A stretch of DNA of 64,000 bases. Source: Chitinophagales bacterium. GTDB taxonomy: Bacteria; Bacteroidota; Bacteroidia; Chitinophagales; Saprospiraceae. Below the pieces are notes generated by a model that saw nothing but the letters and a program-made list of their open reading frames with translations, had not been told where the DNA came from and searched no databases. Location of the stretch: the NCBI GenBank assembly GCA_013298845.1, contig JAAFJN010000004.1:124001-188000 (forward strand). The letters are read 5' to 3'. How positions within the stretch are numbered: position 1 is the first letter of the stretch; the number at the start of each line of letters is the position of its first letter. Below, in pieces: positions 4,601-44,974 of the stretch. The translations under genes and the position numbers were made by a program.

Positions 4601-5982
4601 CGCGTTTTCGCCCCGTTTTAATGACCGCTTCGGTGGCATCGTTGGGCTTTTTACCAATGGCCATTGCGGCCGGTGCCGGTGCCGAGGTACAAAAACCACT
4701 GGCCACGGTGGTGATTGGTGGCTTGATTTCGGCCACGTTGCTCACCCTCATTATTTTGCCCGTGTTATACGCCATTTTTGCGACGGATATTCCGTTCAAA
4801 CCCCGCCGCCGGTCAAAAGGCGCGGCCACGTTGCTCGCCGTTGTTATCACAACAATGGTCGCGAGCACCCTCTCGGCGCAAACGCGCTGGACCGAAGCCC
4901 AGGTGCTCGAACTGGCGGTGCAACAACATCCGGCCTTGCAAAAAGCCCGCCATATCGTGGACGAAAAAAGTATTTTGGCCCAATCCAAAATGCCGCTGCC
5001 GCCCCTGCAAGCCTATACCTGGTTGCCCTTTAATCCCGAAGTGGGCATCACACAAGATTTTAACCATCCTTCGTTGGTAAAAACCGACCAAAAAGTGCGC
5101 GGCAGTGCCCGGTCGCTGGCCGTGGTTGAAATGTCGCTGCAAGAACAAATGATCCGCCGCGACCTGACCATTTTGTACGAAAATTGCCAGTTTTTTTTGG
5201 CTAAAACGGCCATTTTGGAACGGCAAGACAGCCTGTTGGGCCAATACTTGCGGGCGGCCGAATTAGAATACAGCACGGGCAACATCGGGATGTTGAGCAA
5301 ATTAACCATCGAGTCATTTGCCAAAGAAGCTAATCGCAGCGCCAGGGCCGCTCAATTGGAAACCCGCGCCGCGCTTTATCAACTGCGCACCGAAGCGGGT
5401 ATCCCCGATTCTTTGTGGTTGCCCCAAATGCCGTTGGCCCCCCGTTTATTGGCCGAATTACCCGCCGACAGCAGTTTATTGGCCCAATTTAAACAAATTA
5501 ACCGGCAACAAGCCGCTTTGGAACTGGAACGGCAGCAAAAAACGCTGTTACCCGGTTACGGGCTGGGCGTGGTGACCAACGTGGACCCGCGCAACCGTTT
5601 TTTGCCCAATGCTTATTTTTCGGTGAACCTACCCGTGTTCAAAAAAGGCCAAAAAGCCGAAACGGAAGCCGCCCGAACCCGCCAACTCATCGTGCAGGAT
5701 GAAATGGCCCTGCTGGAACGCGACCTGCTCGTGCGCCGACAACAATGGGCGCAACAATGGACCAACGCCCAAGCCGAACTCGCGTATTGGCAACAAACCG
5801 GCGCACCCCTTTCCACCGAATTATTGCGCACCGCCGACCTCAACCGGAAAGCCGGGAACGCCACCGTTCAGGAGTTTTTGCAGGCGCAGGAAATGGCCTT
5901 CGGGTTACAATTAAAATATTTGGACACCGTAAAAGCCCTCAACGAAGCGGTGGTGCAATTGCAATTTGCTTTTGTGCCGTAA
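1699..5982 (+). CDS. czcA: CzcA/CusA-type heavy-metal RND pump fused to a TolC-like outer-membrane factor
   Basis: The 1427-residue protein joins two parts. Residues 1 to about 1035 are a complete RND proton antiporter. The heavy-metal signature DFGLIVDGAVIIVEN starts at D397 and resembles the divalent-cation (Co/Zn/Cd) class rather than the Cu/Ag class. At about 1040-1060 the segment GAATLLAVVITTMVAS followed by TLSAQ looks like a retained signal peptide, now an internal membrane anchor. Residues from about 1062 to the end form an outer-membrane efflux domain with the long coiled-coil helices of TolC proteins. The segment would carry the C-terminal domain into the periplasm. RND-OMF fusions are known in Bacteroidota. 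The adaptor follows 45 bp downstream. Metal specificity is inferred from the motif only. Confidence 0.93.
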   Translation: MIQHIIQFSVGNKTVVLLATLAIVIWGGISLSRLPLDAIPDVTNEQVVVATQSPNLSAVEMEQFVTYPIEMAMRNIQGLDGIRSVSQFGLSIVTLDFKEGTDLYFARNQVNERLLAVKEEIPAGFGNPAMNPITTGLGEIFQYTIKPENPEDTTWSAQELRTVQDWVVKKQLLGTEGVAEISSFGGYLKQYHVKVEPSLLRSTGVTLAEVFAAVEQGNENTGAAYVEKDANNYFIRGIGLAADERDLEQAVVKVNNGTPVLVRDVATVDIGSAVRYGALTQGDKEAVGGIVLMLKGENSRNVILRIKERLKNLQLPKGLKLEAFLDRELLIDRTISTVTRNLLEGGLIVVLVLVLLLGHLRAGFVVASVIPLSMLFAIGCMVAFNVSGNLMSLGAIDFGLIVDGAVIIVENIVSQLIIRSRTNDTSISQEQTIAQAAGSMVRSSFFGQIIILIVYVPLLTLSGIEGKMFKPMALTVIFALSGAVLLSLTYVPAVSALVFKGNTNHHETFADRLMNGIARRYQPLLMLALRWKKTIVVLSLLLLTSAVMLFNRMGGEFIPQLDEGDFVIEIRMLPGSSLPSMIKSAELAATEIQRHFPNEVRICTGKIGTSEVPMDPMSIEEMDMVLTMHPREQWQKVHSRAEFEAELQQILGKIPGIFTSIQQPIAMRFNELMSGAKTDVIVQVLGPDLEQLSQLGNQIVREVNKIPGARDVSVAKAEGLPQLFIEYRRDVLARYGLTVKEVNETVQTAIAGRKAGMLFEGNQRFDVVVKMHSNPEQPFDMINQLMVSTANGAQVPLSDLAQIGIKEGPMAVNRIDGERCVNVALNVRGRDIQSVVNDVQKAVQARIQLPDGYRVTYGGQFENLQNAQTRLKLVVPAALLLILLLLYFSFGRVRESLLIFSAIPFAAVGGVMALWLRGMPFSISAGVGFIALFGVAVLNGMVLVGYFQQLEKEGVTDVHSRIIQGVLARFRPVLMTASVASLGFLPMAIAAGAGAEVQKPLATVVIGGLISATLLTLIILPVLYAIFATDIPFKPRRRSKGAATLLAVVITTMVASTLSAQTRWTEAQVLELAVQQHPALQKARHIVDEKSILAQSKMPLPPLQAYTWLPFNPEVGITQDFNHPSLVKTDQKVRGSARSLAVVEMSLQEQMIRRDLTILYENCQFFLAKTAILERQDSLLGQYLRAAELEYSTGNIGMLSKLTIESFAKEANRSARAAQLETRAALYQLRTEAGIPDSLWLPQMPLAPRLLAELPADSSLLAQFKQINRQQAALELERQQKTLLPGYGLGVVTNVDPRNRFLPNAYFSVNLPVFKKGQKAETEAARTRQLIVQDEMALLERDLLVRRQQWAQQWTNAQAELAYWQQTGAPLSTELLRTADLNRKAGNATVQEFLQAQEMAFGLQLKYLDTVKALNEAVVQLQFAFVP

Positions 5983-6027
5983 TGGCCGTTTTAACCTCTT
6001 TCTTTTAAAATTTTTAAAAAAATATTT

Positions 6028-7191
6028 ATGAAAAATATCCTTTTCAGCGCGGCAATCCTGTTGTTATTGGCCGGTTGTGGCAATAAAAACACCCCCGAAA
6101 ATACCGACGCGGCACCCGCAACTGCCGCATCCGCCGAAAAAATCACCCTCACTGCCGACCAAATGCAAAAATCCGGCATCGAAGTAGCGGCACCCTCCGA
6201 ACAGGGCATTGCGGCGGCACTTACCGTCAATGGCACCGTGGCTGTTTTGCCCGAAGGCAAGGCAACGGTTTCGTCCAAAATTGCCGGTCGGGTAGAGCAA
6301 ATTTTGGTGCACGAAGGCCAAAATGTTCAAAAAGGCCAAGTATTGGCGCGGGTATCTACCAGTGTCCTGTTCGATATTCAGCAGGCGTATTTGCAAGCCA
6401 AAGCGGATTTAATTTACCTGGAAAAAGAACTCGAACGCCAAAAAACGCTGAGCCAACAACAAGTGGGCGCGGGCAAAAATTACGAAGAAGCGCAATCGAA
6501 ATACGCCCGGGCCAAAGGTGACCTCGAAGCGGCGGCGGCCAAACTCCAGTATTTAGGCATCGGGACGGAACAATTGAACAACCCCGGCCAACTTACCTTG
6601 GCTAAATCGGTGGCCATTACGGCCCCCATTGCGGGCAATGTATCGTCCATTTTTGTGCATTTAGGCGCGCCCGTGAACGAAGGCACCCTTCTGTGCAATG
6701 TAGTGGGATTGGATAATTTGCACGCCCACGTCGAGGTTTTTGCCAAAGATATTGCCCTCGTGAACGTGGGCCAAACTGTGGTGGTACGTTTTCCCAACAG
6801 CACCATCCCCGAAATCAACGCTAAAGTGGAATACATCAGCCGGGAATTGAGCACCGACAGCAAAACCTACTCCATTCACATTCCTTTGCCCGCCAACGGC
6901 AAAAACTGGTTACCCGGAATGCCCTTGCAGGTGGATATTCACACCAATAAAGTGCAGGCTCTGGCCGTACCAGAAGCCGCTTTGTTGCACGATGGTACCG
7001 AAACCTGGCTGTTTGTGGCCAATGCAACCGGCAATAACGCCCTGACATTTGAAAAAGTAAACGTTGTGCCCACTTTGCGCGGCGGCGGCTGGGTTGCCCT
7101 CCCCGGCGCCACATTGGCGGGTAAAAAAGTGGTGGTAAAAGGTGCGCACCTGATTCAGGGCGAAATGAAACGCGGCGAAATGGAAGAATAG
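6028..7191 (+). CDS. czcB: CzcB-like periplasmic adaptor lipoprotein
   Basis: The 387-residue membrane-fusion protein has a lipoprotein signal ending LLLLAGC, with the lipidated cysteine at residue 17. A barrel-sandwich/lipoyl half follows (GKATVSSKIAGRVEQILVHE), then a helical hairpin at about 110-190, the second lipoyl half (ITAPIAGNVSSIFVH) and beta-barrel domains. It would bridge the inner-membrane pump to its outer-membrane domain. It lacks the long His-rich N-terminal extension of some CzcB proteins. Confidence 0.92.
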   Translation: MKNILFSAAILLLLAGCGNKNTPENTDAAPATAASAEKITLTADQMQKSGIEVAAPSEQGIAAALTVNGTVAVLPEGKATVSSKIAGRVEQILVHEGQNVQKGQVLARVSTSVLFDIQQAYLQAKADLIYLEKELERQKTLSQQQVGAGKNYEEAQSKYARAKGDLEAAAAKLQYLGIGTEQLNNPGQLTLAKSVAITAPIAGNVSSIFVHLGAPVNEGTLLCNVVGLDNLHAHVEVFAKDIALVNVGQTVVVRFPNSTIPEINAKVEYISRELSTDSKTYSIHIPLPANGKNWLPGMPLQVDIHTNKVQALAVPEAALLHDGTETWLFVANATGNNALTFEKVNVVPTLRGGGWVALPGATLAGKKVVVKGAHLIQGEMKRGEMEE

Positions 7192-33973: not shown

Positions 33974-34006
33974 ATCCCGTAATCGCCAAACAAGCAATTA
34001 CGGGAT
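33974..34006 (-). terminator. Terminator for the CotH cluster (minus strand)
   Basis: Perfect stem ATCCCGTAAT / ATTACGGGAT, followed on the minus strand by TTTATTTTAGGG. It is 23 bp after the CotH stop codon, so the two convergent units each have their own terminator. Confidence 0.82.
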
Positions 34007-34029: not shown

Positions 34030-35646
34030 TTATTTATTCAAATCCGCCAATTTGACTTTGATCGGATTGGTGGTGTAATTATTGGGATAAAAGGCCACTG
34101 CACCCGCGTTTTCTACCATAATATAGTATTGCAATTCGGAATCGGGCGAATCGGCTTCGATATTGGCCACGAACATCCGCTCGCCGGACGACAGTTTTTT
34201 CGAAGGTTCATCGTCCATTTGCAGGGCGAAATAAGGTTGCTGCGCGTTGTGCCGGTAATAAATCCACACTTTTTTGGGAAAACGGTCGGCTTTAGCGGTA
34301 ATTTTATAACCCGTCAGTTTGTTGCTTTCAAACTTGGCGCGGCCCTGGTGGGTCACGTCACTCACCGACGAAGGCAAAGCAGTGAGATCGGGGTGGGTGG
34401 ACAAAAACTTGGTACGCGCCGCCATTAATTCCACAATTCCGGGAATTTTACTTTTGCGACCAACGGTCGTTTTTAGGCTGTTTTGAAAATCGCTGAGCGA
34501 ATACGTTTTGTATTTATCGTCAATAAACGGCACCACAATCATCGCTTGCAGTTCTTGCGCGCGTTTTTCGTATTCGCCATTTTTGAAATTTTCCTTCACA
34601 ATTTGTGCAATGTGGCTGAGGTAAATTTTGCGGTTCAACTCGTCGCTCAACAATTGTTTAATCAACGGGCGCAACGCGTTATCGCTGTGCAACATGGGGT
34701 CGAGGCGTTGCAGGTCGCGGAGTTCGATATCGCTGCCGCTGCCGGTGTTTTTTAAACCACCAAAACACAGGTTCAAATCCCAGGGAACGGGCTGAAAACG
34801 ACCAAAATTATCCTGGTACAGGTAATAATTGGTGGCAGTACCGGTGTAACTGCTCAGGTTTACCATCACGTTATTGAGGGCGAGCATCCACAGGACATTG
34901 TCCACGTCCAACATTTTCCCGATGTTTTTGGGGTCGTTGTTGAGCACGCGGGTCATTTCCTGCAAGGTCGTCCAACCTTCCGGCGAATTCATTTCAAAGT
35001 TACCCTTGTAACAATCCACGTTGTTTTCAAATTCCAAAGAACCGAAGATATTTTGTTTGCAATTGTTCGGCACTTCGGGTTTGTAATCCACCCCGGCTTT
35101 AAAAAACGGGTGTCCGGTGGAGTTAAAATGTTTTTGGGTAAACTTATCGTCCACGCTTTCGATGTTCACAAAAAGCCCGATGTACTCGTCGTTCATGTAC
35201 AATTTGGTGTACGACAACTGCGGAACGCGCAGGTACTTGGCGGCAATTTCGTAAAAAAGCACTTCGCGCACCATGCTGGGATCGCGGAGTGCCGAAGAAA
35301 TTTTTAAAGCAGTAAAGCCCTGGTGGTTTTGGCTTTCTTCTTTGTAATTTAATTTGATACTGAACGGATTGCGTTTGAGGTTGGTCTGGTAAGACTTATC
35401 ACCGCGATAACGGATACCCACGTTGGCGTACTGGCTGCCATCAATGCTGGCCGTACCCACGAGCATACCATTGCCGTAAATCCGCAGGGAATCGAGGGCA
35501 TCGGGCCAGTTTTTGACCGGAACCGTAAGCCGGATTTCACCGATGCTTTTAATATCGTAAAGGGGGCGATCAGCCGGTTTTTGGGGTGCCTGTGCGCAAA
35601 GCAACCAAGGCAAAAAGGCGATCAAAAATGGGAGTAATTTTTTCAT
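34030..35646 (-). CDS. CotH-type secreted protein kinase
   Basis: The 538-residue protein has a signal peptide (MKKLLPFLIAFLPWLLCAQA). The CotH kinase fold covers about 40-430: GIRYRGDKSY (nucleotide-binding region), LKISSALRDPSMVREVLFYEIA, LFVNIESVDDKF, and the metal/catalytic region YYLYQDNFGRFQPVPWDLNL. A beta-rich C-terminal domain (about 440-538) has no T9SS motif. CotH kinases phosphorylate proteins outside the cytoplasm. It is the last gene of a minus-strand cluster with DUF4956, HlyD and TolC proteins, which suggests action at the envelope. Confidence 0.87.
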   Translation of the reverse strand: MKKLLPFLIAFLPWLLCAQAPQKPADRPLYDIKSIGEIRLTVPVKNWPDALDSLRIYGNGMLVGTASIDGSQYANVGIRYRGDKSYQTNLKRNPFSIKLNYKEESQNHQGFTALKISSALRDPSMVREVLFYEIAAKYLRVPQLSYTKLYMNDEYIGLFVNIESVDDKFTQKHFNSTGHPFFKAGVDYKPEVPNNCKQNIFGSLEFENNVDCYKGNFEMNSPEGWTTLQEMTRVLNNDPKNIGKMLDVDNVLWMLALNNVMVNLSSYTGTATNYYLYQDNFGRFQPVPWDLNLCFGGLKNTGSGSDIELRDLQRLDPMLHSDNALRPLIKQLLSDELNRKIYLSHIAQIVKENFKNGEYEKRAQELQAMIVVPFIDDKYKTYSLSDFQNSLKTTVGRKSKIPGIVELMAARTKFLSTHPDLTALPSSVSDVTHQGRAKFESNKLTGYKITAKADRFPKKVWIYYRHNAQQPYFALQMDDEPSKKLSSGERMFVANIEADSPDSELQYYIMVENAGAVAFYPNNYTTNPIKVKLADLNK

Positions 35647-35704
35647 GGTTAAAAAAACAATAAAAATTCAAAATGCAATGATAAAGGTGAGCACAGAGGG
35701 CAAA

Positions 35705-35986
35705 CTACAAAATCGTTTCAAACTCCGAAGCATCCGACGCGGGAAATGACCGCGCAATGGCCGCCAAACGCGCCGTGTGCATGGATTGAAGTTGCTGGTT
35801 TACCGCTTCGAGCAACACTGGGTCAATAAGCCGCTGAATATCCTCCACCGTGCGAAAACGGTCGTCGTCGCCCATTTTTAAGGTAATTTCGGAAACACTG
35901 TTTTCAAATTTTACACTGGTCCGATTATCGTTTTTAAATACCGAAATTTTGAGTGTTGGATGGTCTATTTGTCCAATGATGCGCAT
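35705..35986 (-). CDS. Small uncharacterised protein in the CotH cluster
   Basis: The 93-residue cytosolic-looking protein has no signal sequence. It starts MRIIGQIDHPTLKISVFKND and shows FENSVSEITLKMGDD and RTVEDIQRLIDPVLLEAVN. It lies 58 bp before the CotH gene and 76 bp after the TolC gene on the same strand. The family is not recognised. ATG 35986 is chosen because upstream codons do not look conserved. Confidence 0.7.
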   Translation of the reverse strand: MRIIGQIDHPTLKISVFKNDNRTSVKFENSVSEITLKMGDDDRFRTVEDIQRLIDPVLLEAVNQQLQSMHTARLAAIARSFPASDASEFETIL

Positions 35987-36062
35987 ATCTGTGGTGTACT
36001 TTTCTGAACTAATCAGCCGCAAAAGTACACACCCGCGCACAGTGGCCCATTGAAAAGGTCAC

Positions 36063-37271
36063 TTATTTTTCTAACCAGTTCCTATCGGCCAAAAAACCGC
36101 CCAAAAACAGGGCTTCTAAATAATATTCGGTCATTTCCTGTTCGTACGAACGCACTTTCAACCGGCGGCGCAACTGCAATTCCTGGTGGAGCAGCACGGT
36201 TTCAATGCCGTCTTCGTCACTTTGGAGCATTTGATCGAGGTTATAGCGTTGTTTTGAGGTTTGAATTTGCTGATCAGTGGCTTGCACAACCGTCTGTCGG
36301 TCGAAAAAACGCCGAATGGCCTTTTGTTTTTCGGCGGCCAATTGGCTGCGCAGGGCTTGTTGTTCTTCCGAAGCGGCGTACCGCTCTATTTGCAATACTT
36401 GTTGGCGCGCCTGCCGGGAACCGTTCCAGGGAATCACAAAACCCGCGCCCACCGAAAAATCGTTGCGAAAAGGTTCGCCGGGGCGGTTGATATAACGCAC
36501 CTGCAAAAAGTCCACGATTTGTTGTTCGCGGGCTTTTTCCAATTGCAATTCCGCGTCGAGTTGGGTGATTTTGGCCGCGTCTTCGCCCAACGAAGGGTGC
36601 GCCGACAACGAATCGCGGATTTGAGCGCACACGGCGGCCATATCGGCCACGGTGACCCAGCGGCTGGTATCCAGCACGGCGTTGGCATTTCCGGTGAGTT
36701 CCGTGATTTTGGTGCGCAGGATATTTTCGTTCTCCCGAATGCGGAGTTGCAATTCGTCGCGGTCAAATTCGGCTTTCATCAGGGCTTCCGGGTTGGCGGC
36801 ACCCAAAGCGGCCTGGTTCTCGAACAGTCGAATTTTGTCTTCGTACACCGCCAATAACGACTGCTGAAGGGCAAGGGTGCGCGCGGCGGCGTAATAATCC
36901 GCCAGGTCTTTGTACCGCTCATAATAGGCGTAATACTGCTGTTCGAGCCGGTTGGCCTCGGTGACGCTGGTTTCGGTTTGTTGTAACTGGTGGTAGGCGC
37001 TGCGCTCTTTGCGGCCATTCATCGAAAACCGAAGTTGGTAATCTTGCTGGTAAATATCGGAGCGGCGCGTTTGGGTGCGCACGGCAATTTCGTCCAGCAG
37101 CGGCAGTCGCGCATTGGTTTGTCGCTGAAAATCGGCGATGCGTTGTTGGGCAGCGGCGGAAACATCGTCTTTGGCGGCGTTAATAATTTGGTCGGTAGTG
37201 ACCACATTTTGGGCAAAAACAACGCTACTCCACCCCCAAAAGAGCATAAAAGCCCATCCGGATTTTTGCAT
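36063..37271 (-). CDS. TolC-like outer-membrane factor
   Basis: The 402-residue protein has a signal peptide (MQKSGWAFMLFWGWSSVVFAQ) and two coiled-coil OEP repeats, with the usual N/D-rich turns and a beta segment NDFSVGAGFVIPWNGSRQ. Outer-membrane efflux proteins form trimeric tunnels for type I or RND systems. It begins 4 bp after the HlyD gene, so the two must be made together. No RND pump or ABC exporter is next to them, which is unusual. Confidence 0.87.
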   Translation of the reverse strand: MQKSGWAFMLFWGWSSVVFAQNVVTTDQIINAAKDDVSAAAQQRIADFQRQTNARLPLLDEIAVRTQTRRSDIYQQDYQLRFSMNGRKERSAYHQLQQTETSVTEANRLEQQYYAYYERYKDLADYYAAARTLALQQSLLAVYEDKIRLFENQAALGAANPEALMKAEFDRDELQLRIRENENILRTKITELTGNANAVLDTSRWVTVADMAAVCAQIRDSLSAHPSLGEDAAKITQLDAELQLEKAREQQIVDFLQVRYINRPGEPFRNDFSVGAGFVIPWNGSRQARQQVLQIERYAASEEQQALRSQLAAEKQKAIRRFFDRQTVVQATDQQIQTSKQRYNLDQMLQSDEDGIETVLLHQELQLRRRLKVRSYEQEMTEYYLEALFLGGFLADRNWLEK

Positions 37272-37275
37272 ACAA

Positions 37276-38325
37276 TTATTGGCTGGTTTGTTGGGATAAA
37301 ACGGACTGGAACGGGCTGACAATGTCGGAAGACCATTGCAAAATTACCTTTTCCTTTTGCAAAAACTTGTTGTTGGAGGGTATTTCGATCATGACTTCGC
37401 GGCCATAGGTGCGCAATTCGGGAATTTTCCGGAGGCGTTCGGGGATTTCCACAATGCGGTGCCCCAGCCCCACAATGCGCCCGCTGGTTTGTTCGGCGGG
37501 GTGCAAACTGGAGATTACCCGCAGCGAATCACCAATGTTAATTTTTAGGGAAAGACTTTCGTGCACGTAACCCACGACCAAATTGGGGCTTTGTTCGTAA
37601 AAAGAAATCAAGGCGTCAAAAGCGTCCATATTTTGGCCCTCTTTACAGTGAATTTCGCCAATTAGCCCATCCGAAGGGGCTTTTATCAACAACCGGCCCT
37701 GCTCTTTTTGGTAAAAAACCATTTCGCTTTTCAAATGGCTGGCCTCTTTTTGCTCCGATAAGCCGGACAATTTAAGTTCTTTTTCGAGGGCGGCTAATTC
37801 TTTGTCAAATGGTTCGGCGGCCAGGCGGAGTTCTTCGCGCAGGGCGTTTAACTTGGCTTGGGCGGGGTTATTGGCCGAAGAATCTTTAATTTGGACCGTT
37901 TTAAGGTCATTAATGAGGCGTTTATTGAGGGCAATTTCGGATTCGGCTACCCTGATAGCGGCCTGGATAACGCCCATTTTTTCGGCTTTTTCGGAGCGTA
38001 CCTCTTCCATTCGGGAGCGCACTTCGGCTTCGCGCCAGGTATTGGCCGATTCAATTTGGGCGATATTCGACGACAATTCGTTCATTTTAATATCCAGCGA
38101 AATGCGGCTAACTTCCATCATTAATTCGCCTTTTTTTACAAATTGGCCGGGTTTAATGTGCAATTTATGCACCGTTAAAGCGTGATCGAGGTTAATACTG
38201 GTTTCTTTATTTTCGGCAAAACCGTAAAAACTGGCCGTACTGCGGCTAATATTTTTAAAAATGCCCCAAAGTCCCCACAGCAAAAACGGGATGGCGACGT
38301 ACAAAAGATTTATTTTACGTAACAT
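37276..38325 (-). CDS. HlyD-family membrane-fusion protein
   Basis: The 349-residue protein has an N-terminal membrane anchor (about 6-25). Lipoyl half motif HKLHIKPGQFVKKGELMMEV precedes a long coiled coil (about 80-205), followed by the second lipoyl half RLLIKAPSDGLIGEIH and a beta-barrel domain. It is 15 bp after DUF4956 and 4 bp before the TolC-like gene. It would join an inner-membrane partner to the TolC tunnel; DUF4956 is the only membrane candidate nearby. Confidence 0.9.
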   Translation of the reverse strand: MLRKINLLYVAIPFLLWGLWGIFKNISRSTASFYGFAENKETSINLDHALTVHKLHIKPGQFVKKGELMMEVSRISLDIKMNELSSNIAQIESANTWREAEVRSRMEEVRSEKAEKMGVIQAAIRVAESEIALNKRLINDLKTVQIKDSSANNPAQAKLNALREELRLAAEPFDKELAALEKELKLSGLSEQKEASHLKSEMVFYQKEQGRLLIKAPSDGLIGEIHCKEGQNMDAFDALISFYEQSPNLVVGYVHESLSLKINIGDSLRVISSLHPAEQTSGRIVGLGHRIVEIPERLRKIPELRTYGREVMIEIPSNNKFLQKEKVILQWSSDIVSPFQSVLSQQTSQ

Positions 38326-38340
38326 AGCGGATGAGGGCGG

Positions 38341-39027
38341 TTATTCGTAGAGATTAATATAGGTGTCGGTAAAGGTCAGGCGGATATTTTTGGCCCCCGG
38401 TATGCCGTTCAGGCGGTCGGTGAGGGCCAGCCCTTCCATTTCATCGCGCAATTGCAGTTCGTAAGTGTATTCCACCAAAGGGTTATCGGGAATGATCCGG
38501 TAGCGTTTTAACACGTATCGTTTGGCCAATTCTTTAATCACTTCCTGCGATGCCGCCCGGGTGGATGCATCGCCGGGCAGTTCGATGCGCAATTGGCCCA
38601 ATAAGTTGTTTTTGCGGCTAAATGGCGTTAACCAAAGGAAAAAGGCCACCAAACAAAAGGCAATGGTCCCAATAATGGCAATGATAAAACTGTACACGCC
38701 ACAGGCAATACCCACGGCCATGGCCCCAAAAATAAAGGAGATATTGCGCGGGCTGAACAACTGGGTCCGAAACCGTAATATGGCCAATGCCCCAAAAATA
38801 CCAAAACCGCGCGCCGGGCTGTCACCAATGGACTGCATGATGATGGTAGTCACCAATGACATCAGGATGAGCGATTGCAAAAAGTGATCGGGGGTGGATA
38901 CATCCCGCGAAACCTTCTCGTACGTAAAAACGATCAAGGAAGACAGCAAAAAAGACAACACTACCGAAAAAACAACCAGCATAAAGGTCTGGTTGTCGAA
39001 CGTAGCGACAGACGTGAAAATTTCCAT
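38341..39027 (-). CDS. DUF4956 integral membrane protein
   Basis: The 228-residue protein has an N-terminal membrane domain of three to four helices (about 14-132) with SIGDSPARGFGIFGALAILR, typical of DUF4956. A cytosolic alpha/beta domain (about 140-228) ends the protein. DUF4956 genes are known to neighbour CotH and VTC-type polyphosphate polymerase genes. Here CotH is present but no VTC protein is. It is the first gene of the five-gene cluster. Confidence 0.88.
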   Translation of the reverse strand: MEIFTSVATFDNQTFMLVVFSVVLSFLLSSLIVFTYEKVSRDVSTPDHFLQSLILMSLVTTIIMQSIGDSPARGFGIFGALAILRFRTQLFSPRNISFIFGAMAVGIACGVYSFIIAIIGTIAFCLVAFFLWLTPFSRKNNLLGQLRIELPGDASTRAASQEVIKELAKRYVLKRYRIIPDNPLVEYTYELQLRDEMEGLALTDRLNGIPGAKNIRLTFTDTYINLYE

Positions 39028-39115: not shown

Positions 39116-39162
39116 AAAGGCGTTGAACAAGGACAACGAGGTTTGTTATGTTCAACGCCTTT
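39116..39162 (-). terminator. Terminator for the PKD protease gene
   Basis: Perfect 14-bp stem AAAGGCGTTGAACA / TGTTCAACGCCTTT with a 19-base loop. On the minus strand it is followed by TTTGTTTTTATA. It lies 20 bp after the stop codon at 39182. Confidence 0.85.
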
Positions 39163-39181
39163 GAATAATACTATATCGCGT

Positions 39182-42100
39182 TTATCGCGTGATTGTTACC
39201 CGAACCACGAAGGAAGTTTGGGCATCGCTGATGCGGAATGCGTACACACCCGCCGGTAATGCACCGTAATCGAAGCGGTGATTCAGGCTGCCCGTGGCGA
39301 AGTTCAACCGGTCAGAACGGAGGAGTTTACCCTCGGTGCCAAACAAGTCGAACTGCAACTCATCGCTGCCTTGGCCTTCCATTTCTAATTGGAAAGCACC
39401 GGTGTTCGGATTGGGGTAAAGGCGGAATTTTTCCACCCAGTTTACATCTTCTACGCCGGATACATCCACAATAACGGTTGTTTGGAATACCGATACACCA
39501 CATTCGCTAATAGCCGATAATACCACATTGTAACTACCGCTAACGGTGTACGTGTGGGTTGGGCTTACTTCGCTGCTCGCGGCGGAGTTATCGCCAAAGT
39601 TCCAGGAATAAACCGGTGCATTTTGCGAGTTATTGGTAAAGGTCACCTGGCCATTCACGCCTACGGAAGCGTCAAAAGCAGCCGTTGGAGCGGCATTTAC
39701 GGTTATGTACAACAATTTGGAGGTCGTATTGGCACCAAAAGCGTTGGTTGCGGTTAACGAAACATCGTACACACCCGGCTCGGTAAATACCACCAATGGG
39801 TTTTGCGTTTGCGCTGTTTGCATCAAATCACCGTTGAGCGTAAATGCCCATTCCCAAGCCGTTGGCTGTCCCACCGACAAATCGGAAAATTGCACCTCAA
39901 AAGGAGCGCAACCGGACAACTGCTCACCGCCGCTAAAATCGGCAATGGGGGCGCTGCCTTCAATCACCACTTCGGTGATATAATTGCGGCTTCCACAATC
40001 GTTGGTAGCAATCATTTCAACCGTGTAGGTGCCCGGAGCGCTGTAATCATGAACGGGGTTTAACTCGGTACTGCTGCCTCCGTCGCCAAAATTCCACGAA
40101 TAAGTGTTGGCATTAAAGGACGCATTGGTAAACTGCGCCGATAAACCACCCAATTGATACGTAAATAAAGGAGTGGGCAGACCCGCAACGGCAATATAAC
40201 TGAGTTTGGTCACCACCGAATTACCGGCACTGTTGGAGGCCGTCAGGGAAACATCGTAAACACCCGCTGCGTCGTAAACAACCGTTGGGTTCGCTTCCGT
40301 GGAAGAAGAAGGTGTACCGCCGGGGAACAACCACACAAAGTCGGTGGCGTTTGGCGTTGACGTATTGCTGAACGTAGCCGTAAACGGCGCACAACCCGTA
40401 GTTGTGGTAGCGGCAAAATTCGCCGATGGCGGCGTAATTACCGTAACGAGTTGGGTAAATGTAGCCGTTCCGCAAGTATTACCCGCCGTAAGCACTACGG
40501 TATAAACACCATCCGTTGCGTAATTATGAGACGGGTCCGATTCGGTGCTGGTATTTCCATCGCCAAAATTCCAGTTGTACGAAGTTGTACCGGTAGAGGT
40601 ACTGGTAAATGTTACTTCGGTTCCGGTTGTGTCATACGTAAAGCCAGCCACCGGATTACCAACGGCGGTTACAAAATTAGTTTGGGTCACCGTAGAGGAA
40701 CCCTGCGAATTGGATGCCGTTAAAATAACCGAATACAAACCGGGCGTTGCGTAAGTCACCACCGGATTCACCGCCGTTGAAGTCGCCGGAGTACCGCCGG
40801 GGAATTGCCAGTTGAACGTGGTGGCATTGGCCGTTGAACTGTTGTTAAACTGTACCGTTAAGGGCGCGCAACCCACGTTGTTGGTAGCCGTCATGTTGGC
40901 CACGGGGGGCGTTACAATGGTTACTACTTGTGAAGAAGTGCTGGTTCCACAGGCATTAGTGGACGTCAGGATAACGGTATAAACGCCATCATTGAGGTAC
41001 AAATGACTGGTATTGGTCCCCGTTGCGGTACCACCGTCGCCAAAATCCCAGGAATGCGCCGTAGCCCCGCTGGAAGTATTGGTAAATGATACCGATGCGC
41101 CATTTTGCGTGACCATAAAGCCCGACGTCGGGCCGGAGCCAACCGTTACTGCGTTGGTTTGAGCGGTAGAAGTGGAACCCGCCGCGTTGGTCGCCGTGAG
41201 TGTAATGCTATACGTACCCGGTGCGTTATACGTTACCACCGGATTCGCATCGGTAGATGAAGCCGGGTTACCACCGGGGAATTGCCACACAAAAGAAGTA
41301 GCATTCGCAGATGAGGTATTGTTCATGGTCACCGTAAATGGTGCGCAACCATTGCTGCTGCTGACCGTAAATCCGGCCGTTGGGGGCGAAACGATCGTAA
41401 CAACCTGGGTGCTGGTGCTCGTGCCGCAGGCGTTGGTGGCCGTTAATACAACGGTGTATACGCCGTCATTTACGTAGGTATGCACCGGACTGGCCTGTGC
41501 ACTGCTATTTCCATCGCCAAATGCCCAACTGTAAGCAGTTGCATTGGCCGAACTATTGGTAAAAGCAACCGAAGTATTCGTGGTCGTGCTGGTAAAACCG
41601 GCGACCGGCGCAACGCCAACGTTAATGAAACTGGTTTGGGTCGTGCTGCCACTGCCCGCTGCGTTGCTGGCCGTCAGTACCACATTGTAAGTACCCGGTG
41701 TATTGTACACCACCACCGGATTGGCCATTGTGCTGCTGGACGGTGTGCCGCCGGGGAATTGCCAACTAAATCCGGTTGGGTTACCCGCCGAGGTGTTGGT
41801 AAATTGCACCGTGAGTGTATTACAGCCCGTTGTTGGGGTTGCCGTAAACGAGGCCGTTGGCGCTGCCACAATGGTTACGGTTTGCACCGCCGTCGAAGTA
41901 CCGCAGGCATTACCCGAGGTAAGCGTTACCGTGTAAGTACCCGCCGCCGCAAACGTGGTGGTAAAATTGGGTTGATTAGACGTTGCATTATTACTTACTG
42001 CCCAACTGTACGTGGTAGCACCACCGGTGCTTGTACTGGTGAACGTTGCTTGTAATCCGTTGATATTTTGGGTAAAGGACGCCGTTGGGGCGGTATTTAC

Positions 42101-44974
42101 CGTAATGTAACTGTTTTGAGTGGCCGTATTTGAACCGGCGGCATTGGAAACCGTGAGGATCACATTGTATTGCCCCGGAGTAGTGTAAGTTACTACCGGA
42201 TTGGCCACCGTGCTACTGGACGGTGTACCACCGGGGAATTGCCACGCAAATCCGGTTGTATTAGCGGAAGAAGTGTTGCTAAACTGCACCGTTAATGGCG
42301 CACAACCTGACGTTGCCGATGCGCTAAAATTGGCCACCGGTGGCGTCACAATGGTCACCGTTTGGGTAAATGTGCTGGTTCCGCAGGCATTTAAGGCGCT
42401 CAGAACAACCTGGTAAGTACCGTCGGCGGCGTACGTATGTTGTGGGTTGGCAGCGGTGCTGTTGGTACCATCGCCAAAATCCCAGAAATACGAAGTGGCA
42501 TTGGCCGATGCATTGGTAAACGTAACTACCGCATTATTAACACTACTGCTAAATGATGTATTAGGTACCGTTTGAACCGTAATAGTTTGGGTAGCGGTAT
42601 TGGGTCCGGCCGCGTTGGTAGCGGTCAGGGTTGCCGTGTAAGTGCCCGGATTGGTGTACACGACCACCGGATTGGGCACCGTAGCCGTGGATGGTGTTCC
42701 GCCGGGGAACGACCACTGGAGACCGGTGGCATTCACCGAAGTACTGCTAAAATTAACCGTCAATGGGCCACAACCCGAACTCGGCGATGCCGTGAAGGAG
42801 GCTGTTGGTGGCAATGCCAGGTTAACAACTTTGGTGACCGTTGTACTGCCGCAATCGTTAAAAATGGTCAGAATCACCGTGTAATTACCACCCGTCGGGT
42901 AAGTGTACACCGGATTTTGTTCGTCGCTGGTAGCACCGTTACCAAATTCCCACACGTACGAAGTGCCCGTATTGGTGATACTGGTAAAACTTACGGTAAG
43001 GCCATTGACCGTTTGTGTAAAGTTAGCCGAGGGCACCGTATTGACCGTAATTAAGTTATTGTACGTCGCAACGGAAGAACCAACGGAATTATACGCCGTT
43101 AAAGTAACCGAATAAACACCCGAACTCTGATACACAACCACGGGGTTGGCCTGTTGAGAAGACCCCGGAATACCACCCGGGAATTGCCACAGGTAACTCA
43201 CGGCGTTGGGTGAAGAATTATTAGTAAAATTCACCGTTAAGGGTGCGCAACCCGATGTTTCGGAAGCAAAAAAGTCGGCTACCGGAGCCGTATTAACGTT
43301 GGCCGTTCTTACGACACTGCCGCAAGGACCTTCAACGGTAAGAGTCACAACGTACGTATTTCCTTCCGAATAAGTGTACACCGGATCTTCTTCGGTGCTG
43401 GTATTACCGTCGCCAAAATCCCACAAATACGATGTTGCTCCCGTCACCGTAGCGTTAAACGATACGGTAAGCCCGTTCACCGTTTGGGTAAAACTGGCAG
43501 TAGGTATCCCCAACACTGTTACTTGTTTGGATATACTGGCCTGCGAAGCCGTTCCGTTGTTCAATATCAACGTTACATTTTTTATACCCGCTGTTGTCCA
43601 GGTTACCGTCGGGTTTGCCGCCGTAGAGGTGCCCGGAATACCGCCCGGGAATGTCCAGTTGTACGTATTGACGGTACCCGTTGATTCATCGGTGAAGGCA
43701 ACTGGCTGGTTGATACAAGCCGGTTCAGGCGACCATGAAAAATCAGGCGTTGGTGGCGGACCGCTGGAACAGGGTTGCAAACAACCATTATTGATCCGCG
43801 ATGTGATATGGTTACTGATTGAATTCACCGATGCCGTACTCCATTCCGTTGAAGTAGAAACAAACGGACACATAATAAATAAGGTACCGCCGGAGGGGCA
43901 GTTATCGTGCGACGCTGCGAAGTTGTGGCCAATCTCGTGCGAAGTCAAAACGCGCAACAAATCAGCGTCGCTCGAAAAGTCTTGTAAAACGTGGTAGCGA
44001 TTAGAAGTACAAACCGCCGTCAGGTAAGCAATCCCGATGGTACCGCCGTCCAAATCAATATTGGTCCACATTTCGGCCAAATCATAACTCACCCCGAAAC
44101 CACCGGCATTACCCCAGTTGCGGAAATTAGCCAAATAATTGCCCGCTACGCTGGTTGCACCCCAGGGGTTAGCGGAAGACACGATTTGAATAACAATATT
44201 AAACGTAATGTCGTGGTTAAAAACACCCGTGTAGTCGCCTTCAACATTGTTCAAAACACCAATATTGTGCGCTTGCACGGCACTTGAGGAACCGTATTTG
44301 GACAACATGGAAGCATCGGAAGCAATGGCCAAATCTACCTGATAACAAGCCGAAGCACCGTTATCAGCCTGGATTTTTTCTTCCACTTTTTGGTCAATAT
44401 CTTCGTGTAAAGGATCATCGTGATGGTGGTCGGTGCCACAACCCAGGTCCAAACCCGTAGTAATAACGTCTTTGCGGTTGTACACGAGGTACAAATCTTT
44501 GTCGTAAGACGGATCTACGTACCATAATGGCTGAATATAATAAACGTCTCCGCCGCTGCTCACCGAACCATAGATAAAACCTTCGTCCGTGGTCATACGA
44601 ACGGGGCCATTATCTACCGTATTTACGCCTTTGTAAGGGCGAACGGTGGTGCGCAATGGAAAATCACCCTGTTCCGTTTGATGCACCAATTTAAAATTGT
44701 CATCAAACATATCATTGTAATTGAGTTGCATTCCCCAATGCCGGTCTCCCAAATGGAGATAAATGGCTTCGTTGGTGTGATCCTGCGTATAATAGTGCAC
44801 TTCGGTTGCGTTGAGGCGATAGACCTCCCACTTGACGTAACGCTCCGAAATTTTAGCAGAATTTTGAACTTGAACTGGAATACCCGTGAAGTTTTGTGCA
44901 CAAACAGTAATGTGTGCAAAAGCAGTGGCTAGTACAAAAAAAAGCAGACTAAGCCTGAAACGACCAAAATGCAT
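39182..44974 (-). CDS. Secreted metzincin protease with 18 PKD modules and T9SS sorting domain
   Basis: The 1930-residue protein has a signal peptide, a propeptide-like region (to about 190), and a reprolysin (M12B)-like catalytic domain (about 200-400). Zinc ligands lie in HEIGHNFAASH (H346, H350, H356; E347) and the Met-turn in LFIMCPFV (M368). From about 405 to 1850 there are 18 PKD-like modules that alternate between a W-x-FPGG type and a W-x-FGDG type, nine pairs. The C-terminus, LYPNPNTGAFQLEME onward, is a T9SS type A sorting domain. It is likely a cell-surface or released protease with a long stalk. A good promoter lies at 45063-45091. Confidence 0.92.
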   Translation of the reverse strand: MHFGRFRLSLLFFVLATAFAHITVCAQNFTGIPVQVQNSAKISERYVKWEVYRLNATEVHYYTQDHTNEAIYLHLGDRHWGMQLNYNDMFDDNFKLVHQTEQGDFPLRTTVRPYKGVNTVDNGPVRMTTDEGFIYGSVSSGGDVYYIQPLWYVDPSYDKDLYLVYNRKDVITTGLDLGCGTDHHHDDPLHEDIDQKVEEKIQADNGASACYQVDLAIASDASMLSKYGSSSAVQAHNIGVLNNVEGDYTGVFNHDITFNIVIQIVSSANPWGATSVAGNYLANFRNWGNAGGFGVSYDLAEMWTNIDLDGGTIGIAYLTAVCTSNRYHVLQDFSSDADLLRVLTSHEIGHNFAASHDNCPSGGTLFIMCPFVSTSTEWSTASVNSISNHITSRINNGCLQPCSSGPPPTPDFSWSPEPACINQPVAFTDESTGTVNTYNWTFPGGIPGTSTAANPTVTWTTAGIKNVTLILNNGTASQASISKQVTVLGIPTASFTQTVNGLTVSFNATVTGATSYLWDFGDGNTSTEEDPVYTYSEGNTYVVTLTVEGPCGSVVRTANVNTAPVADFFASETSGCAPLTVNFTNNSSPNAVSYLWQFPGGIPGSSQQANPVVVYQSSGVYSVTLTAYNSVGSSVATYNNLITVNTVPSANFTQTVNGLTVSFTSITNTGTSYVWEFGNGATSDEQNPVYTYPTGGNYTVILTIFNDCGSTTVTKVVNLALPPTASFTASPSSGCGPLTVNFSSTSVNATGLQWSFPGGTPSTATVPNPVVVYTNPGTYTATLTATNAAGPNTATQTITVQTVPNTSFSSSVNNAVVTFTNASANATSYFWDFGDGTNSTAANPQHTYAADGTYQVVLSALNACGTSTFTQTVTIVTPPVANFSASATSGCAPLTVQFSNTSSANTTGFAWQFPGGTPSSSTVANPVVTYTTPGQYNVILTVSNAAGSNTATQNSYITVNTAPTASFTQNINGLQATFTSTSTGGATTYSWAVSNNATSNQPNFTTTFAAAGTYTVTLTSGNACGTSTAVQTVTIVAAPTASFTATPTTGCNTLTVQFTNTSAGNPTGFSWQFPGGTPSSSTMANPVVVYNTPGTYNVVLTASNAAGSGSTTQTSFINVGVAPVAGFTSTTTNTSVAFTNSSANATAYSWAFGDGNSSAQASPVHTYVNDGVYTVVLTATNACGTSTSTQVVTIVSPPTAGFTVSSSNGCAPFTVTMNNTSSANATSFVWQFPGGNPASSTDANPVVTYNAPGTYSITLTATNAAGSTSTAQTNAVTVGSGPTSGFMVTQNGASVSFTNTSSGATAHSWDFGDGGTATGTNTSHLYLNDGVYTVILTSTNACGTSTSSQVVTIVTPPVANMTATNNVGCAPLTVQFNNSSTANATTFNWQFPGGTPATSTAVNPVVTYATPGLYSVILTASNSQGSSTVTQTNFVTAVGNPVAGFTYDTTGTEVTFTSTSTGTTSYNWNFGDGNTSTESDPSHNYATDGVYTVVLTAGNTCGTATFTQLVTVITPPSANFAATTTTGCAPFTATFSNTSTPNATDFVWLFPGGTPSSSTEANPTVVYDAAGVYDVSLTASNSAGNSVVTKLSYIAVAGLPTPLFTYQLGGLSAQFTNASFNANTYSWNFGDGGSSTELNPVHDYSAPGTYTVEMIATNDCGSRNYITEVVIEGSAPIADFSGGEQLSGCAPFEVQFSDLSVGQPTAWEWAFTLNGDLMQTAQTQNPLVVFTEPGVYDVSLTATNAFGANTTSKLLYITVNAAPTAAFDASVGVNGQVTFTNNSQNAPVYSWNFGDNSAASSEVSPTHTYTVSGSYNVVLSAISECGVSVFQTTVIVDVSGVEDVNWVEKFRLYPNPNTGAFQLEMEGQGSDELQFDLFGTEGKLLRSDRLNFATGSLNHRFDYGALPAGVYAFRISDAQTSFVVRVTITR

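Follow-up and report, generated by a model that had tools for sequence, protein, structure and literature searches.

A window of 64,000 nucleotides (the whole stretch of DNA analysed) from a Chitinophagales bacterium of the Saprospiraceae (assembly GCA_013298845.1, contig JAAFJN010000004.1, positions 124,001 to 188,000 of the forward strand) contains five consecutive genes on its minus strand (Table 1). In order of reading, they encode a DUF4956 protein, an HlyD-family periplasmic adaptor, a TolC-like outer-membrane channel, a protein of 93 amino acids (aa) and a CotH kinase. The first three, referred to below as the trio, are a conserved unit (window 39027-36063), and it is with the possible function of this unit that the following is concerned. 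An initial annotation had described the same five genes, had taken the narrow gaps between the first three to mean one unit, had placed a terminator past CotH and had remarked on the lack both of a VTC gene and of an RND, ABC or MFS pump to accompany the HlyD-TolC pair. All of that stands. The genes lie where it put them, the gaps are 15 bp (DUF4956 to HlyD), 4 bp (HlyD to TolC), 76 bp (TolC to the 93-aa gene) and 58 bp (from there to CotH), and a terminator-like repeat follows CotH. A search of the whole genome of the window gives 0 VTC matches, and among the window genes adjoining the trio, i.e., a PKD metalloprotease on one side and the 93-aa gene on the other, there is no RND, ABC or MFS pump.

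Table 1. Features of the locus in window coordinates, with the distribution of one protein family met in relatives
Feature	Position	Strand	Remarks
DUF4956 gene, 228 aa	38341..39027	-	Pfam DUF4956, 3.9e-13; proposed inner-membrane component
HlyD-family periplasmic adaptor, 349 aa	37276..38325	-	HlyD_D23 and HlyD_3 above cut-off
TolC-like outer-membrane channel, 402 aa from the ATG at 37271	36063..37271	-	from model and Foldseek
93-aa gene	35705..35986	-	probably not part of the system
CotH kinase, 538 aa	34030..35646	-	Pfam CotH, 8.4e-41; membership doubtful
Inverted repeat and T-rich tail between PKD protease gene and DUF4956	39119..39159	-	by eye; terminator-like, bordering the trio upstream
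Perfect 10-bp inverted repeat, then T-rich tract, past CotH	33974..34006	-	by eye; terminator-like; 13-nt loop
TACTTTTG, TAnnTTTG match upstream of the 93-aa gene	36020..36027	-	weak hint at a separate promoter
Family of ~320-aa proteins			clade B: L035, L036, L037, L038, L040, L049, L170, L175, L176

How general is the trio? One genome per species (84,980 species) was scanned with two conserved peptide patterns, giving 263 relatives of which the best 80 were kept. The patterns were drawn from four trio-type DUF4956 proteins picked since HlyD adjoins them, and with them DUF4956 was found followed by HlyD and TolC on the same strand in 74 of the 80. Five of the other six (L052, L058, L104, L108 and L131) stop at a contig edge and the sixth, L100, has another gene order, so that all three genes are present in 75 of 75 informative relatives, with DUF4956 identity to the window protein down to 35%. 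Among the carriers are Flavilitoribacter nigricans DSM 23189 (L119) and Neolewinella maritima (L124). In these relatives HlyD-TolC pairs do regularly sit beside DUF4956, and a conserved order across many genera is supported for the trio, also beyond Bacteroidota. An order-level sample of 298 genomes, with trio-tier DUF4956 defined by E <1e-60, has 36 such loci in 34 genomes; HlyD is present at 33 of the 34 loci examined, the exception being L179. When the neighbours of 81 of 83 loci were clustered (the clusters being partly annotated), CotH was the sole family recurring at a fixed position beside the trio.

The DUF4956 protein, the only one in the window's genome, scores 49.9 bits with its Pfam family (PF16316; cut-off 30.6), and its model (pLDDT, i.e., predicted local distance difference test, 85) has about five membrane helices followed by a C-terminal domain of ferredoxin-like, possibly ACT-like, fold. 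One alignment comprises 75 of the 80 loci and the window; in the wider set of 121 aligned rows R87 is present in 121 and R85 in 114, both being retained in VTC and VTC-less forms alike. The adaptor is above cut-off for HlyD_D23 (32.5 bits against 30) and HlyD_3 (28.1 against 22.2), has a hydrophobic segment, judged by eye, at its N-terminus, and clusters with the HlyDs of other trios. This and all other trees are quick ones with support values from the Shimodaira–Hasegawa-like approximate likelihood ratio test (SH-aLRT) only and midpoint rooting; rows of the HlyD tree were thinned out according to locus number, and the DUF4956 tree comprises 76 of the 121 rows, L100 not being among them. For the third protein Pfam gives no relevant match, OEP included; 16 of 69 members of its family (68 of the 75 TolC loci were aligned with the window) match OEP, at best 4.6e-10. 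Its AlphaFold model (pLDDT 93.5) consists of long helices and two beta-hairpins, and Foldseek matches it to TolC and OprM structures, at best 1.3e-11 to E. coli TolC; the protein models as a TolC fold.

The abstract of a 2021 review gives RND, ABC and MFS proteins as the energised transporters of tripartite assemblies (PMC8277102). With tripartite efflux pumps and type I secretion systems the trio has in common an HlyD-type adaptor and a TolC-fold outer-membrane factor in one apparent operon; it differs in that its candidate inner-membrane partner is DUF4956. Any tripartite assembly must have a component in the inner membrane; the unit offers no other candidate for it, and the conservation of the trio in many genera, some of them outside Bacteroidota, makes DUF4956 the natural one. 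The reading towards which we lean slightly is that the trio may be an envelope-spanning conduit in which DUF4956 would contact HlyD and transport would be outward.

Could DUF4956 instead be a regulator or sensor, modulating an HlyD-TolC pair that works with an unlinked RND, ABC or MFS pump? Some MgtC-family proteins are thought to be regulators or sensors, and DUF4956 is like MgtC/SapB in having membrane helices followed by what may be an ACT-like C-terminal domain. In the Foldseek comparison MgtC C-terminal domains take ranks 2 and 5 (2lqj at 1.1e-3 and 7qa5 at 1.4e-3, with TM scores by target of 0.60 and 0.64), amid ACT and other ferredoxin-like domains. Pfam MgtC is matched at E <=0.01 by 17 of 76 DUF4956 family members (best 1.2e-4), and the genome of the window has other HlyD and OEP genes. 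However, the window DUF4956, at 14.1 bits, is under the MgtC cut-off of 31.4, and the MgtC/SapB family has no known link to HlyD or TolC, although no search aimed at one was made. The regulatory alternative also has to contend with the constant company of HlyD and TolC in the informative relatives, with the finding that, in the partly annotated neighbour clusters, no family but CotH has a fixed place and with the existence of a second DUF4956 clade with its own HlyD (clade B, below), and is judged unlikely. A search of solved structures with the DUF4956 sequence gave two chance-level matches alone (E 0.7).

What might an export conduit of this sort carry? The initial annotation had pointed to CotH and DUF4956 as neighbours of VTC polyphosphate polymerases. 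For the family the link is real, resting on relatives with VTC and on CotH at many loci; the genome of the window has no VTC. New here is a VTC gene with HlyD and TolC in four relatives not titled Bacteroidota. The order is HlyD-TolC-VTC-CotH-DUF4956 in L100 (titled 'bacterium'), DUF4956-HlyD-TolC-VTC in L125 (Fibrobacteres) and CotH-DUF4956-HlyD-propeller-TolC-VTC in L126 (Chitinispirillaceae); in L131 (Deltaproteobacteria) DUF4956 is at a contig end and HlyD-VTC-TolC (L260) is on another contig of the same genome. Sixteen further genomes were searched for VTC via their loci, 12 of the Bacteroidota-type branch and the 4 just named. Two of those 12 (L103 and L119) have VTC, on contigs other than that of the trio; the 12 include L053, which is titled Thermoanaerobaculia and groups with Saprospiraceae rows in the DUF4956 tree. 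That tree has three clades, namely A (with VTC and mostly CotH), B (HlyD-VTC-DUF4956) and the trio clade. Within the last, 46 rows whose stretches lack VTC make up a branch (99 SH-aLRT, midpoint root) to which L125, L126 and L131 do not belong. R94 and Q51 of DUF4956 are present in 88 of 88 trio rows, and in 3 of 3 of the VTC-bearing ones, and clades A and B mostly have other residues there.

Clade B is informative about the history of the adaptor. The arrangement HlyD-VTC-DUF4956 is found in 14 of its 16 loci; of the remaining two, L039 has HlyD and TolC with VTC not found, and L173 has VTC with HlyD not found. Independent profiles, made from the other HlyDs and OEPs of the window's genome, detect HlyD in 15 of the 16 loci. 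In the HlyD tree those of clade B cluster with generic adaptors, apart from the trio HlyDs (92 SH-aLRT, not starred). Searching with the L035 HlyD as a single query retrieves generic adaptors, at 6e-12, and no trio HlyD. Iterated profiles join the two sets, as expected inside one superfamily. Because clade-B HlyDs group with the generic adaptors, the comparison suggests two or more separate recruitments of HlyD to DUF4956 systems; one recruitment for all of them is not favoured. Beside HlyD-VTC-DUF4956 in clade B there is also a family of proteins of about 320 aa, some with lipoprotein-like N-termini by eye (Table 1). A beta-propeller protein was considered as a further part of the trio system and left out, as there is a single weak match (L082) among Bacteroidota trio loci. 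It recurs in clade B (9 loci), and a propeller-like domain is fused C-terminally to HlyD in L125 (9003-11708) and encoded by a separate gene between HlyD and TolC in L126 (3397-4623). The two domains are 42% identical over 292 columns, and the L126 copy has weak DUF3616/Phytase-like matches.

Is CotH, then, part of the unit? Of 93 trio-clade loci, 27 (23 of them among the 80) have a CotH gene on the same strand, no more than 700 bp from the cluster or inside it, and none of the 93 has one on the opposite strand within that distance. By our own arithmetic, from the 13 CotHs in the 6.4 Mb of the window's genome, the chance of such adjacency is <1%. In L181, L185 and L186 CotH is between DUF4956 and HlyD. 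These three, with L054, L055, L057, L062, L090 and L188, supply the nine trio-locus CotHs that form one clade (100 SH-aLRT), and other trio-linked CotHs are scattered elsewhere in a tree from which fragments <180 aa were excluded and in which 8 of the 12 other own-genome CotHs were included, the remaining 4 being scored separately. Tails like those of the type IX secretion system (T9SS), recognised by eye, end twelve Bacteroidota trio-linked CotHs; Pfam identifies such a tail in L055, L129 and the own-genome copy L249. The CotH type of the nine-member clade is present in 19 of the 34 trio genomes and 18 of the 264 others (Fisher p 2.7e-11, uncorrected for kinship, and 4 of the 19 having supplied query rows); 6 of the 19 have it within ~3 kb of the trio. 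The genome of the window also has a CotH of this type, with a T9SS tail, on another contig (G000:C47), 66% identical to that of L055 (785.8 bits).

The CotH gene of the window itself is another matter. Its product is a clear family member (141 bits against a cut-off of 23.8) with no T9SS tail seen, and its clade consists of 20 unlinked CotHs of relatives and one other own-genome CotH (98 SH-aLRT), the nearest being L206 at 57%. In 11 of 11 stretches around its nearest kin, covering ~1.5 kb on each side, none of DUF4956, HlyD, TolC or VTC was found. Kin of this CotH (L206-L216 and others) are often tandem CotH gene pairs in genomes of the family. The 93-aa gene is present in 41 of 61 family genomes and is on a different contig from the trio in all 6 of the other genomes where both could be placed (G385, G444, G462, G478, G524 and G580). 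Between TolC and the 93-aa gene there is a match to TAnnTTTG, the Bacteroidetes -7 consensus; as the window has 75 such matches against 58.9 expected, it is weak evidence. Both terminator-like repeats of Table 1 were read by eye, the loop of the one past CotH being outside the range of the site scanner, whose counts in the window, 11 terminator-like and 7 promoter-like sites, are close to shuffle means of 9.6 and 6.7.

The opposing case, that all five genes are one operon and the local CotH is the kinase of the trio, draws on their common strand and short gaps, on the lack of a strong terminator between TolC and the 93-aa gene and on the frequency with which CotH adjoins the trio in relatives. 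It also draws on the next larger CotH clade (26 rows, 99), which adds to that of the window the trio-adjacent CotHs of L062 and L065, that of L096, 1.2 kb upstream of its trio, and one of L174, in an HlyD-VTC-DUF4956 locus. It is nevertheless quite unlikely, given that the 21 nearest tree relatives of the window CotH are all unlinked, that a CotH from the main trio-linked clade is encoded elsewhere in the genome and that the 93-aa gene lies apart from the trio in other genomes. A five-gene operon is not the best reading of histories that are largely apart. Because of the unlinked 93-aa gene, the weak box and the unlinked CotH kin, it is probable that the trio, the 93-aa gene and CotH each stand as a unit of their own, and the window CotH is a doubtful member. 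The initial annotation's order DUF4956-HlyD-TolC-CotH thus stands for its first three genes and is doubtful, for the window, in its last.

Two neighbouring features may be noted. Directly upstream of the trio, behind the terminator-like repeat, 39182-44974 (-) encodes a secreted protein of 1930 aa with an M12-type metallopeptidase domain, 18 PKD stretches and a T9SS tail. Some 30 kb from the trio, at window ~5470-6921 (+), is an ordinary adaptor gene (HlyD_D23 6.8e-33). Next to it is a frame of 1429 aa that contains an OEP domain and is perhaps an RND-OEP fusion.

Several findings weigh against the conduit, or against phosphate as its cargo. Of the 34 trio genomes in the order-level sample 24 are without VTC; the 10 with it, each of which has also a second, low-scoring DUF4956, do not differ in frequency from the 95 of 264 other genomes (p 0.57). 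Within the trio HlyDs, that of L100 clusters with the L125 and L126 proteins in a position that is not clearly basal, so that VTC loss is not firmly ordered. TolC is present at 4 of the 16 clade-B loci (L035, L037, L175 and L039), the independent profiles giving the same number, and with those generic profiles neither HlyD nor OEP was found in 11 of 11 clade-A stretches; DUF4956 is therefore not always dependent on HlyD or TolC. Genome G508 has its trio-tier DUF4956 (L179) with no HlyD or TolC in the 17-kb stretch. The Foldseek matches of DUF4956 are to its C-terminal domain only, weak and general, the single one <0.001 (rank 1) being to a spliceosome chain. On the barrel strands of TolC all 69 of 69 rows have R65 and R81, which by alternation lie in the polar phase, and conserved acids at 63, 67 and 77 are there also; since the acids stand among the arginines, there is no clear anion-selective lining, and an anion ladder is unsupported. 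Nor was an energy source for the conduit identified in VTC-less genomes. As to L179, it is an orphan trio-type DUF4956 for which assembly error or loss is conceivable.

Might the trio, then, export something other than phosphate, e.g., a lipid, a peptide or a polysaccharide precursor, with VTC and CotH as separate users of a common membrane part? The many trio genomes without VTC fit this, as does CotH being the only recurrent neighbour. So too does the occurrence, in the portions available of one paper, of DUF4956, a polyphosphate polymerase and CotH as accessory genes of Gram-positive Pel clusters (PMC7112168). It accords less well with VTC accompanying HlyD and TolC in four of four relatives not titled Bacteroidota that lie outside the VTC-less branch or group with such, or with R85 and R87 being kept irrespective of VTC. 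A non-phosphate cargo is possible, if on the whole rather unlikely. With the Pel accessory genes the trio family shares DUF4956 in association with CotH, and in some relatives a VTC gene; the differences are that HlyD and TolC are not mentioned in those portions of the paper and that the genome of the window has no VTC.

Returning to the export conduit, DUF4956 would take the position that an RND, ABC or MFS pump has in the inner membrane, HlyD would span the periplasm and TolC would cross the outer membrane. The parts seen of a study of yeast VTC describe the synthesis of polyphosphate as coupled to its translocation, via a channel with a lining of basic residues (PMC9911596). The VTC-bearing relatives are similar in having a VTC-domain gene near that of a multi-helix membrane protein with conserved basic residues; they differ in that DUF4956 is another membrane protein family and that the bacterial route would continue via periplasm and outer membrane. 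By analogy, VTC in the clusters of relatives outside Bacteroidota would make polyphosphate and push the polymer via DUF4956 into the conduit. With 24 of the 34 trio genomes lacking VTC, polyphosphate is a putative substrate. In the branch of the window VTC may have been lost, and, as the cluster there is without it, the conduit would be supplied by a different enzyme or have a different cargo, perhaps a related compound. The CotH kinases with T9SS tails are likely to be at the surface, which makes a phosphoryl donor a candidate cargo in VTC-less forms; outside the outer membrane such kinases might use the exported donor or act as acceptor.

Taken at its boldest, the analogy would make the trio a fourth class of tripartite assembly, powered by polymerisation where others rely on ATP-binding cassettes or proton flux, in which polyphosphate made by VTC in the cytoplasm is threaded via DUF4956, HlyD and TolC to T9SS-secreted CotH kinases that use or anchor it at the surface, and the VTC-less branch delivers another phosphoryl donor; this is speculative and, as a whole, improbable. 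The suggestion in the initial annotation that DUF4956 is the inner-membrane partner of a new export or surface-phosphorylation system is partly supported, by the conservation of the trio and the family-level link to VTC and CotH; the local CotH and the 93-aa gene are doubtful parts of it. Has any of this been described before? The portions available of papers naming DUF4956 (PMC7112168, PMC10434189 and PMC6848847) yielded no link to HlyD or TolC. A search of the literature other than preprints and most subscription journals found no publication with a polyphosphate polymerase together with HlyD, none bringing polyphosphate export, the outer membrane and TolC together, and no CotH in the reports listed on HlyD/TolC operons. 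A VTC gene near CotH is tabulated in Clostridium perfringens in the part seen of an earlier paper (PMC2879425).

Tripartite envelope assemblies have been described with three kinds of inner-membrane transporter, and HlyD-TolC with DUF4956 would, if the proposal is true, add a fourth. The VTC link in distant relatives provides a testable function for the trio. If correct, it would offer a route for the export of phosphate polymers by bacteria and a role for DUF4956. It may also offer a supply of donor to kinases beyond the outer membrane, and so an explanation of how such a kinase obtains its substrate.

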